From NCBI RefSeq assembly GCF_012275445.1, contig NZ_JAAZQK010000006.1, forward strand, positions 62,001-126,000: a stretch of DNA of 64,000 nt, in the 5' to 3' direction. Position numbers and translations under genes: made by a program. The notes under the pieces were generated by a model that saw only the letters and a list, made by a program, of their open reading frames with translations, was not told the DNA's origin and did not search any database. How positions within the stretch are numbered: the stretch's first letter is position 1; every line of letters starts with the position of its first letter. Shown here piece by piece: positions 38,477 to 40,838 of the stretch. The DNA comes from Rhizobacter sp. SG703 (GTDB lineage: Bacteria > Pseudomonadota > Gammaproteobacteria > Burkholderiales > Burkholderiaceae_C).

Positions 38477-39052
<576 letters not shown>

Positions 39053-39126: not shown

Positions 39127-39211
39127 TGGTCCCCTCGGTCCGAGTCGAACGGACACGCCTTGCGGCCCCGGCTTCTGAGACCGGTGCGTCTGCCAATTCC
39201 GCCACGAGGGG
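39127..39211 (-). tRNA. tRNA-Leu(CAG), divergent
   Basis: This is an 85-nt class II tRNA with encoded CCA. The acceptor is CCCCTCG/CGAGGGG, the D-arm starts GGCGGAATTGGCAGAC, the anticodon stem CCGGT/GCCGG holds loop CTCAGAA (anticodon CAG), and there is a long variable arm and T-arm GTCCGTTCGACTCGGAC. The first base pair is C-G rather than the usual G-C. It is the last of a six-tRNA array. Confidence 0.88.
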
Positions 39212-39237
39212 GTTGATCTGCCTCGCATGCGCTTGGG

Positions 39238-39308
39238 GGTGACCGGCCGGAGTCGAACCGGCACCGGCGGAATCACAACCCGCGGCTCTGCCATTGAGCT
39301 ACGGCCAC
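39238..39308 (-). tRNA. tRNA-His(GTG), divergent, no templated G-1
   Basis: The acceptor is GTGGCCG/CGGTCAC, the anticodon stem GCGGG/TCCGC holds loop TTGTGAT (anticodon GTG), and the T-arm is GCCGGTTCGACTCCGGC. The base before G1 reads T, not the G-1 that marks histidine tRNAs, and the discriminator C is followed by CCC instead of CCA. Both facts separate it from a standard housekeeping tRNA-His. Confidence 0.85.
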
Positions 39309-39340
39309 ACCCAAGCGCACGCTGGCCTGTTTTCACTGAC

Positions 39341-39426
39341 TGGACTCGACGATCCGATTCGAACGGATGCGGGCTTGCGCCGTCTGGTTTGCAGCCAGAT
39401 GCCTTCGACCACTTGGCGACGTCGAG
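39341..39426 (-). tRNA. class II tRNA with Cys anticodon (GCA)
   Basis: This 86-nt tRNA has encoded CCA. The acceptor is CTCGACG/CGTCGAG, the D-arm GCC-AAGTGGTCGAA-GGC, the anticodon stem TCTGG/CCAGA with loop CTGCAAA (anticodon GCA), a 14-nt variable region that can fold as GGC-GCAA-GCC, and T-arm ATCCGTTCGAATCGGAT. Normal tRNA-Cys has a 4-5 nt variable loop, so a long variable arm with a Cys anticodon is unusual. The D-arm resembles tRNA-Ser. The charged amino acid is uncertain. Confidence 0.85.
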
Positions 39427-39433
39427 ATCTTGT

Positions 39434-39512
39434 TGGTATCTCGTGCACGATTCGAACGTGCGACCTCCGGCTTCGTAGACCGGCGCTCTTGATCCAGCTG
39501 AGCTAACGAGAT
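39434..39512 (-). tRNA. tRNA-Arg(ACG), divergent
   Basis: This 79-nt gene has CCA. The acceptor is ATCTCGT/ACGAGAT, the D-arm AGCTCAGCTGGATCAAGAGC, the anticodon stem CCGGT/GCCGG with loop CTACGAA (anticodon ACG, normally edited to ICG), and T-arm GCACGTTCGAATCGTGC. The acceptor and D-loop differ from the usual betaproteobacterial tRNA-Arg(ACG) starting GCGCCCG. Confidence 0.9.
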
Positions 39513-39518
39513 GTCTTC

Positions 39519-39594
39519 TGGCGCCCCGTGCGGGAGTCGAACCCGCGGCTTCCGGCTAGACAGGCCGGCACTCTGGCCACTGAGTTAACGGAGC
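39519..39594 (-). tRNA. tRNA-Asp(GTC), divergent
   Basis: This 76-nt gene has CCA. The acceptor GCTCCGT/ACGGGGC has a T-G pair. The anticodon stem CCGGC/GCCGG holds loop CTGTCTA (anticodon GTC), and the T-arm is GCGGGTTCGACTCCCGC. The anticodon loop end TA replaces the usual AC, and the acceptor differs from the standard GGAGCGG form. Confidence 0.87.
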
Positions 39595-39655
39595 ATTCGT
39601 TCCATCCGGTCACGGGTTCCGGCGCCGCCCAATCGTTGCGGCCGATTTGTTGATC

Positions 39656-39731
39656 TGGTGTCGCGTGCGGGATTCGAACCCGCGTACCCGGAATGAAAAC
39701 CCGGAGTCCTGAGCCTCTAGACGAACGCGAC
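39656..39731 (-). tRNA. tRNA-Glu(TTC), divergent, first of the array
   Basis: This 76-nt gene has CCA. The acceptor is GTCGCGT/ACGCGAC, the D-arm TCGTCTAGAGGCTCAGGA, the anticodon stem CCGGG/TCCGG with loop TTTTCAT (anticodon TTC), and T-arm GCGGGTTCGAATCCCGC. The discriminator is A where housekeeping tRNA-Glu usually has G. Only 15 bp separate it from the upstream terminator-like hairpin. Confidence 0.9.
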
Positions 39732-39745
39732 CTTGATGCGACATG

Positions 39746-39778
39746 AAAAAGGCCCGGATCCTCATCAGATCCGGGCCT
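39746..39778 (-). terminator. strong terminator on the minus strand, directly before the tRNA array
   Basis: An 11-bp perfect stem AGGCCCGGATC/GATCCGGGCCT with a 7-base loop is followed on the minus strand by a T-run. It points toward the tRNA array and would stop transcription arriving from 39.97 kb or from the MBL-fold gene. The + side has no T-run. Confidence 0.8.
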
Positions 39779-39966
39779 CTGCGAACAGAGCTTGGAAGGG
39801 CGCTGCCTAAGCGCATCCTTCTCCCGGTTGAACCCGACCCTCGTGTCGATCAAGCCCGCGCTGACACGTCAGCGCGACCTGCCCCTGCAGGGGTCGGCGA
39901 GCGATGGTGTGGAGCGGCTTGTTCACGATGCGGATCCTTGAAAAACTTCGGCTCGATCAATCGAGG
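39746..39966 (-). ncRNA. candidate small RNA or attenuated leader before the tRNA array
   Basis: On the minus strand, TTGACG (39996-40001) and TACAGT (39973-39978) are spaced 17 bp, a good sigma70-like promoter in AT-rich sequence at the end of the MBL-fold gene. About 220 bases later is the strong terminator. Between them are several hairpins, including the 9-bp inverted repeat CGCGCTGAC/GTCAGCGCG and ACCCCTGCAGGGG. No reading frame or known RNA family is recognised. It could be a free small RNA or a leader that attenuates the tRNA array. Confidence 0.4.
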
Positions 39967-39986
39967 AGGCGGACTGTAAATAGTCT

Positions 39987-40838
39987 TTACTTCATCGTCA
40001 ACAACTTTTTTCGCGACGACACTTCATCGGTCTCGACGCCGACCGCACGCAGGTAGCGTTCGAACGACTCATCGACCGCCGAGCGCCCTTCGCCGCGGAT
40101 GTTGCGACCCCAGGTGTAGCCGAACACATCGTCGAAGGAGCGCCCCTCCATCACCTGCCGCATGCGCAGGACATCGGCCGGCTTCATCGGCACCAGGTTC
40201 GGGTAGCTGTACATGAACGACACATGCCGGCGGTCGGCCACCACCTGCAGCGCATCGCCGGGAAACAGCGCACCGCCGGGCCGCGGGCCGTGCTGCCAGT
40301 GCAAGGCGGTGCTGCCCGCGAAGTGGCCGCCGCAGCGCAACAGCGCGACGCCCTCGGACAGCCGAAGTTCGTCGCCCTGCCAGAAGCGGATGCGGCTCGA
40401 TGGCCGCATCACCCACTCACGGTCGGCCTCGTGCAGCAGGATCGGCACGCCGCCCAGCGCGTCGCTCCAGTCGACCATCGACGCGTAGAAATGCGGGTGC
40501 GAGATCGCGATCAGGTCGACCCCGCCGCGCGCCTTCAATGCGGCCACCGCATCGTCGGTCACCAGGCTGACGCACTCCCACAGGATGTTTCCCGCGTCGG
40601 TGGGCAACCACATCGCGCGCTGGTCGATCGCGAAGCCCGGCGCGAGGCCGATGCCGAGCACGCCGCCGTCGTCCTCCAGCCGCAGGGTGTGGCGAGCGGC
40701 AAGTTCGGCCATCGTGGTCCAGCGCTGGCCCTGCCAGCCGACGTACTGCCGGTCGTCCTCGCAGATCGGGCAATGCGCCGGGTCCGCGGCGGCTTCGGCG
40801 AACTGCGTCCCGCAGGTCGCGCAGATTGGGTGGTACAT
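39987..40838 (-). CDS. MBL-fold hydrolase with N-terminal zinc ribbon
   Basis: The 283-residue protein begins with a zinc ribbon (YHPICATCGTQFAEA, then HCPICEDDRQYVG), then a metallo-beta-lactamase fold. ISHPHFYASMVDWSDAL replaces the usual HxHxDH, and CGGHFAGSTALHWQH and LFPGDALQVV hold other ligand positions. Only part of the classical dinuclear site is present, so catalysis may differ. It is divergent from a MocR regulator, which probably controls it. A 16-codon longer start is possible but lacks the good AAGGAGCAAG binding site. Confidence 0.87.
   Translation of the reverse strand: MYHPICATCGTQFAEAAADPAHCPICEDDRQYVGWQGQRWTTMAELAARHTLRLEDDGGVLGIGLAPGFAIDQRAMWLPTDAGNILWECVSLVTDDAVAALKARGGVDLIAISHPHFYASMVDWSDALGGVPILLHEADREWVMRPSSRIRFWQGDELRLSEGVALLRCGGHFAGSTALHWQHGPRPGGALFPGDALQVVADRRHVSFMYSYPNLVPMKPADVLRMRQVMEGRSFDDVFGYTWGRNIRGEGRSAVDESFERYLRAVGVETDEVSSRKKLLTMK

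Follow-up and report, generated by a model that had tools for sequence, protein, structure and literature searches.

The tRNA genes and the HNH gene

The window, a stretch of 64,000 nucleotides from Rhizobacter sp. SG703, carries six tRNA genes on its minus strand (39127-39731), preceded by a control region and followed by a gene for an HNH endonuclease. In the order of transcription the genes are:

39656-39731, minus: tRNA-Glu (TTC); ARAGORN and Rfam
39519-39594, minus: tRNA-Asp (GTC), anticodon loop CTGTCTA (CTGTCAC in the host copy); ARAGORN and Rfam
39434-39512, minus: tRNA-Arg (ACG); ARAGORN and Rfam
39341-39426, minus: tRNA-Cys (GCA), type II, with a long variable arm; ARAGORN and Rfam
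39236-39308, minus: tRNA-His (GTG); ARAGORN and Rfam
39127-39211, minus: tRNA-Leu (CAG); ARAGORN and Rfam
38477-39052, minus: array-clade HNH endonuclease, 191 amino acids, last gene of the unit; Pfam HNH_5, E 1.7e-16

ARAGORN and Rfam agree on all six tRNA genes (Rfam scores 43-63 bits, cut-off 29), which are spaced by 6-61 bp, and they bear out the number and common strand given in a preliminary description of this DNA. The six had also been called divergent, and each is indeed only 57-72% identical to the tRNA with the same anticodon elsewhere in its own genome; against the host Leu CAA, the array Leu reaches 74% identity. Rfam reports 47 matches to tRNA across the genome, which comprises 6.5 Mb in 29 contigs. 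The 41 tRNA genes outside the window include housekeeping copies of Glu TTC, Asp GTC, Arg ACG, Cys GCA and His GTG, and two of Leu CAG. The array is therefore redundant, and the first refuting condition of the preliminary description, a genome with no other isoacceptors for these codons, does not hold. A dense run of tRNA genes on one strand, additional to the housekeeping copies and associated with an HNH gene (a common though not universal companion), is typical of a tRNA array unit. Such units are reported with a cut-off of 20 or more tRNA genes (PMC5966550). The present array lies below this number, but arrays of up to 28 genes occur in relatives, and thus the locus is a reduced relative of tRNA array units and does not itself count as one.

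The array tRNA-Cys is 86 nucleotides long, compared to 74 for the host copy, and its type II shape is a detail absent from the preliminary description. Fifteen type II tRNA-Cys sequences from arrays keep the cloverleaf, and 35 cells show changes in both partners of a pair, against 12.3 in shuffles (none of 500 as high), showing that the fold has been under selection. Compared to the host, the anticodon loops differ in Asp, Glu and Leu, and by one base in Cys, whereas those of Arg and His are identical. The array form of the Asp loop is found in 21 of at least 31 Asp genes from array loci. By eye, the array tRNA-His (39236-39308) apparently lacks the usual G-1, and the CCCCA that follows it has one C more than expected.

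The HNH gene lies 3' of the array on the same strand, as described earlier, but it is a conserved part of the unit and not just the neighbor that it was listed as. An HNH relative is found in 269 of 299 genomes of the family. Among the matches listed, 36 are 64-100% identical, and a large group is 52-58% identical. In the former group, tRNAs on the same strand precede the gene in 39 of 43 loci (a count that leaves out an HNH fragment in L101), at a distance of 18-558 bp and of no more than 143 bp in 35. In the latter group no tRNA is present in the 1.5-2 kb upstream of any of 12 controls. The best 80 of 130 relatives in GTDB, many of them the same genomes as in the family set, have a same-strand tRNA upstream of the HNH gene in 72 cases and an opposite-strand tRNA in none; two of the remaining eight loci start at a contig end. 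The gene is absent from five of the 16 regions fetched first. It is under purifying selection, with dN/dS of about 0.03-0.12; against the two nearest relatives of the window the values are 0.03/0.38 and 0.04/0.31. The HNH alignment (A3) holds 31 sequences picked by a similarity filter from the window protein and 80 others. A second homolog in the same genome (G000:C4:85778-86329, 54% identity) has no upstream tRNAs, and its group is found in most genomes of the family.

The control region and its proposed repressor

The control region upstream of the first tRNA (39746-40001) was absent from the preliminary description. It contains the following elements:

39996-40001, minus: promoter -35 element TTGACG, separated by a 17-bp spacer from the -10 element TACAGT at 39973-39978; same layout in relatives
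39976-39990, minus: palindromic operator GTAAAGACTATTTAC, overlapping the -10 element; 60 of 73 loci have it by script
39807-39926, minus: leader ORF, GTG start, 39 amino acids, Shine-Dalgarno sequence AAGGA, stop codon in the P1 loop; homologous leaders in relatives
39823-39827, minus: predicted antiterminator strand CCGGG, within the Pro-Gly codons of the leader; the same in all 27 aligned leaders
39795-39821, minus: hairpin P1 around the leader stop codon; alignment and folding
39777-39790, minus: hairpin P2, overlapping the base of the terminator stem; alignment and folding
39746-39781, minus: intrinsic terminator in front of the first tRNA; 97% of cells paired, changes in both partners at 4 of 10 pairs

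Across genera, the promoter, operator, leader and terminator have all been conserved. This anatomy and its conservation are established, as are the three sites of the operator given below. The script found no operator in 13 of the 73 loci, several of which begin at contig ends, and one of which (L170) has an operator by eye. A stringent form of the pattern occurs at one place in the 6.5 Mb genome. A looser form occurs at three (four strand hits, compared to none for the reversed control): the array promoter, a position just upstream of a repressor gene (C5:487787), and a second leader unit next to rtcR-rtcB (C5:93503). Control of the array by sigma54 was considered and rejected, as a strict -24/-12 pattern has no site upstream of the array in the window and the promoter is of the sigma70 type.

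The repressor gene of this genome (C5:487359-487718) lies apart from the array; indeed array, repressor and rtcR-rtcB all occupy separate places. Its family consists of proteins of about 125 residues, and 33 of 37 loci contain a member whose gene diverges from the array. Among the best 80 of 130 relatives in GTDB, it is present in 52 of the 57 loci with more than 8 kb of upstream sequence. The predicted structure is all-helical (pLDDT 85) and its best match in the Protein Data Bank is a Salmonella phage repressor, although the match is weak (E 0.017). A PHROG family of transcriptional repressors is matched with E 1e-10, and CI repressors are 42-44% identical over part of the length. Pfam finds nothing in the first member and HTH_3 in two of 39 (best E 0.012). 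These 39 were chosen from 63 by a similarity filter, and the ORF of L180, which runs into another frame, was excluded (alignment A2). The family thus resembles CI/XRE-like phage repressors and is predicted to be a CI-like repressor.

The leader and the terminator have the layout of an attenuator: a predicted ORF with a Shine-Dalgarno sequence ends just before the terminator. In the window the frame that contains CCG-GG and the Shine-Dalgarno sequence was chosen. For the alignment (A1), 27 of 59 leaders were picked for diversity; counts refer to 57 of the 59, because L176 and L225 have no usable start, and six starts (L159, L227-L231) were taken from the script scan of the loci. The terminator covaries: in 10 cells both partners of a pair have changed, where shuffles give 1.5 (0 of 500). 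The leader CCGGG is able to pair with CCCGG of the terminator 5' arm. The alternative fold, comprising this helix, P1 and P2, is 88% paired, and 18 of its cells carry such double changes, compared to 7.9 in shuffles (0 of 500). When the RNA is folded before its 3' arm is included, the antiterminator junction appears in the window and in five of the six relatives shown. Both folds are conserved, although the CCGGG:CCCGG core never varies and its pairs give no proof by covariation. All 57 leaders form the core helix, but it still arises in 73% after the sequence between the arms is shuffled, so folding energy alone does not prove the antiterminator. The pairing strength between leader and arm does not exceed that of shuffled upstream sequence (11.5 compared to 10.3, sd 2.0). 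No T-box or other leader family of Rfam reaches its gathering score; the best by E-value is Thr_leader, at 17.7 bits compared to the required 55 (E 0.48).

The second leader unit (G000:C5:93503-94058, equivalent to L244:8504-9058) has its own operator, a 41-codon ORF and a terminator, and converges on rtcR, facing the 3' end of that gene. The unit has no tRNA by ARAGORN, and Rfam gives only one tRNA-like stretch below threshold (tRNA-Sec, 20.9 bits, cut-off 47). Parts of the stretch that follows the unit (CACTTCGGGTGTG ... CACAGCCGAAGTG) precede the first tRNA in L193, L216 and L227, as judged by eye, and the stretch is possibly another structured RNA.

Related arrays and their neighbors

Sixty related genomes were searched, and significant matches to the array occur in all ten that belong to the same genus. 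Related arrays, containing 1-28 tRNAs, are positioned at many sites and on megaplasmids across the Burkholderiales. Among 16 fetched regions the gene order is mostly kept, but the genomic position is not. A flank running to gmk is common to only two of them, L053 and L060, from Rhizobacter sp. Root1238 (G002) and OV335 (G008). In L053 yicC lies 2.8 kb past the HNH gene and does not adjoin it, and in L060 it is not found within the 18 kb read. The yicC-gmk interval had been proposed earlier as the place where close relatives might lack the array. The array is in fact present on the gmk flank, but with only two tRNAs in each relative, implying weak selection on most of its tRNAs. Single genes decay within arrays as well: L054, L055 and L061 contain tRNA-Cys genes with a common broken 3' half.

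At the other extreme, an 83-kb contig of G001 contains 22 tRNA genes (ARAGORN), and megaplasmids of Methylibium (RPME01), Variovorax (RA8) and Polaromonas (P1-6) carry 27, 23 and 19 tRNAs, respectively. The 46 arrays of one to six tRNAs are dominated by His (30), Arg ACG (28), Glu (12), Asp (12) and Pro (11); the His and Arg counts are weighted by 18 Variovorax loci (between L193 and L215) that have the same two tRNAs. These form a genus-wide version of the unit with two tRNAs (Arg ACG and His GTG), the repressor, the leader and the HNH gene.

Full arrays cover nearly all amino acids, including rare ones. This breadth does not fit the idea that the array is an ordinary set of redundant tRNAs raising the capacity for common codons, next to sequence that looks regulatory by chance. 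Leu CAG, Arg ACG, Asp and Glu do serve frequent codons in a GC-rich genome, as is generally known. The operator and leader are conserved, however, the terminator covaries, and the operator pattern occurs at just three places, all of them meaningful. The idea is scarcely credible.

The preliminary description had pointed to phages, plasmids and ICEs as the source of such arrays. The plasmid part of this lead is upheld by the megaplasmids. A phage source was rejected, because the search returned only four Shewanella phage records, each with one tRNA-Arg and covering 12% of the query. The same evidence bears on the proposal that plasmids or phages supply these tRNAs to replace host tRNAs cut by anticodon nucleases, with the attenuator being unimportant. 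Plasmid versions of the array exist, the Asp, Glu, Leu and, by a single base, Cys anticodon loops are unlike those of the host, and phage tRNAs are reported to evade a retron defense (PMC11555353). A nuclease would nevertheless meet the host's own loops in Arg and His, no close phage array was found, and a conserved switch implies that the supply is induced and not constant. We consider this proposal quite improbable.

The repressor family is found in five of 72,556 plasmid records, which are exactly the five with an HNH protein of 69-75% identity; arrays were read in three of them. Among 300 genomes of the order, seven matched the repressor, two from the same family and five from two other families. 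Three of the latter (L252, L253 and L255) share this control region, with operator, leader and terminator next to genes for RtcB and a slipin, 0-3 tRNAs nearby and no HNH gene in the stretch read. L254 has no tRNAs, RtcB, slipin, operator, leader or terminator in the stretch read, and L256 has 26 tRNAs, an HNH protein at 52% identity and no operator by the pattern used.

The unit could instead be a selfish homing element, in which the HNH protein cuts target DNA and spreads the array as cargo, the copy in the window being a decaying remnant. Array loci do occupy differing chromosomal sites and plasmids, tRNAs have been lost between the window (six) and its two nearest relatives (two each), and tRNA-Cys is broken in three relatives. 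The protein shows an HNH domain only. Compact Mycobacterium arrays, located on plasmids, chromosomes and phages, have HNH as their most widespread coding sequence, and homing has been suggested there (PMC5966550). The two that were examined here, L142 and L153, resemble the present family in combining a compact array of many tRNAs with an HNH gene. In these two plasmids, however, that gene is inside the array and 40-47% identical over about half its length, whereas here it comes last, a leader and terminator lie upstream, and RtcB is linked in relatives. A gene placed last behind operator, leader and terminator, under purifying selection that persists while the tRNAs vanish, speaks against a homing nuclease. 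L252, L253 and L255 retain the switch and RtcB with no HNH in the stretch read, and one two-tRNA layout is common to the 18 Variovorax loci. Homing is an unlikely explanation.

Among the best 80 of 130 relatives in GTDB, 62 loci extend more than 8 kb downstream, and 29 of them encode RtcB there on the strand of the array. A slipin is found in 16 loci, Ro60 in 12 and RtcR in 10. The position of RtcB, sometimes accompanied by the slipin, points to tRNA damage as the trigger. YrlA Y-RNAs were observed beside two arrays (L052:1498-1630 and L227:4988-5117), with RtcR and Ro60 in the same stretches. In the gaps of eight array loci Rfam finds tRNAs and one YrlA only, and neither GOLLD nor another large RNA.

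Proposed mechanism and comparison with known systems

The most probable reading, to which we assign a probability of about two in three, is that the locus is an inducible reserve-tRNA and RNA-repair operon, repressed and attenuated, which is opened by ribosome stalling. The interpretation in the preliminary description is partly upheld: the reserve role that it suggested fits well and is strengthened by the redundancy of the tRNAs, by the control region and by the association of RtcB, RtcR and Ro60 with arrays in relatives. We infer repressor binding, attenuation, induction and its inducer, aminoacylation of the tRNAs, and the activity and substrate of the HNH protein. The CI-like repressor would bind the operator over the -10 element, and transcripts that do start would meet the attenuator. 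A ribosome reaching the leader stop codon would melt P1 and mask CCGGG, the terminator would form, and no tRNAs would be made. A ribosome that stalls before this point, for want of a charged tRNA or through a block in elongation, would leave CCGGG free to pair with the terminator 5' arm around P1 and P2. With this antiterminator formed, the polymerase would read on into the six tRNAs and the HNH gene, and the extra tRNAs would refill the depleted pool.

The attenuators of the trp, his, thr and leu operons consist of a leader ORF, an antiterminator strand near its end and a terminator. In the trp-type logic, a ribosome at the stop codon leads to the terminator and an earlier stall to the antiterminator. 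Known leaders of this kind are enriched for a single amino acid or a small set of them. The leader ORF, the position of the putative antiterminator strand near its end and the terminator are alike here, and by its sequence the arrangement would work as a reserve-tRNA operon under an attenuator. The leaders differ in sampling most or all of the 20 amino acids, and the output would be tRNAs and RNA repair instead of biosynthesis.

All 20 amino acids are present in 27 of 57 leaders, and at least 19 in 39. This diversity exceeds that of segments of equal length from ten proteins of the window, with a combined z of 4.7 over 19 clusters that are still related, so the value is not a clean probability. 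The leader in the window lacks F, S, W and Y, and the array in the window has no tRNA for these four. Over all loci, the leader lacks an amino acid of its own array in only two of 347 cases, compared to 6.3 in a null that preserves array size (P 0.008). With one leader per cluster and array size kept, the median P is 0.115, which is not significant and makes the match only suggestive. A first form of the test (P 0.0034; median P 0.005 with one leader per cluster) was set aside as open to confounding by array size. Enrichment in reduced arrays is 1.14 compared to 1.03 (median P 0.015, without the same control for array size). In 12 Variovorax leaders the three codon positions vary at 22, 16 and 24 sites, indicating that constraint on the peptide itself is weak.

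These data leave room for a bolder proposal, which we advance tentatively and at somewhat less than even odds: the leader may be a general sensor of elongation, where codons for all or nearly all 20 amino acids would allow the loss of any charged tRNA to stall a ribosome ahead of the antiterminator. The stall would switch on spare tRNAs that match, together with the nuclease and, in relatives, the RNA ligase. The leader would then be a universal counterpart of the attenuators for single amino acids, and its codons would be reflected in the tRNAs that reduced arrays retain. Such a leader would offer a ready-made reporter of ribosome stalling that could be tested in a laboratory strain.

Several phyla have arrays of spare tRNAs; to our knowledge, though, their silencing and deployment have been worked out in one cyanobacterium only. 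Here both may be written in the DNA, as a dedicated repressor and a leader that reads elongation. The plasmid-borne trn operon of Anabaena sp. PCC 7120 contains 26 spare tRNAs, is silent during growth, is induced by antibiotics that target translation and is repressed by TrcR; a trcR mutant raises rtcB, HNH genes (all8564 and alr0856) and a slipin (PMC10272220). It is the closest working parallel. TrcR is reported to belong to a ribbon-helix-helix lineage restricted to cyanobacteria save for two homologs (same source), whereas the repressor model here is all-helical and CI/XRE-like. The genes are also often physically linked here, and the available portion of the Anabaena paper describes no leader attenuator. 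Because the regulator differs, the operon is not a member of the Anabaena system. No attenuated tRNA operon appears in the titles and abstract openings of the literature searched, which covered few subscription papers, so this absence is no proof.

Damaged tRNAs reportedly regulate the rtc operon (PMC7790460). The relatives of the array resemble the RtcR-controlled rtcBA and rsr-yrl operons in adjoining RtcB, RtcR, Ro60 and YrlA RNA. RtcR is a sigma54 activator, however, whereas the array has a sigma70-like promoter, a repressor family of its own, a predicted attenuator and tRNA genes. In several families of the Burkholderiales, reserve tRNAs may be tied to repair by RtcB under one repressor family, frequently as a single physical unit.

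Some plasmid arrays include further genes. Inside or beside the arrays on the plasmids of Variovorax RA8 and Methylibium PM1 are genes for an RNA ligase (L099:3659-4720), an AlkB-like dioxygenase (L098:6010-6558) and a NADAR protein (L098:722-1321). Plasmid 2 of Variovorax SRS16 (L149) carries a distinct array of about 25 tRNAs, with an HNH protein of 42% identity and a release-factor-like gene.
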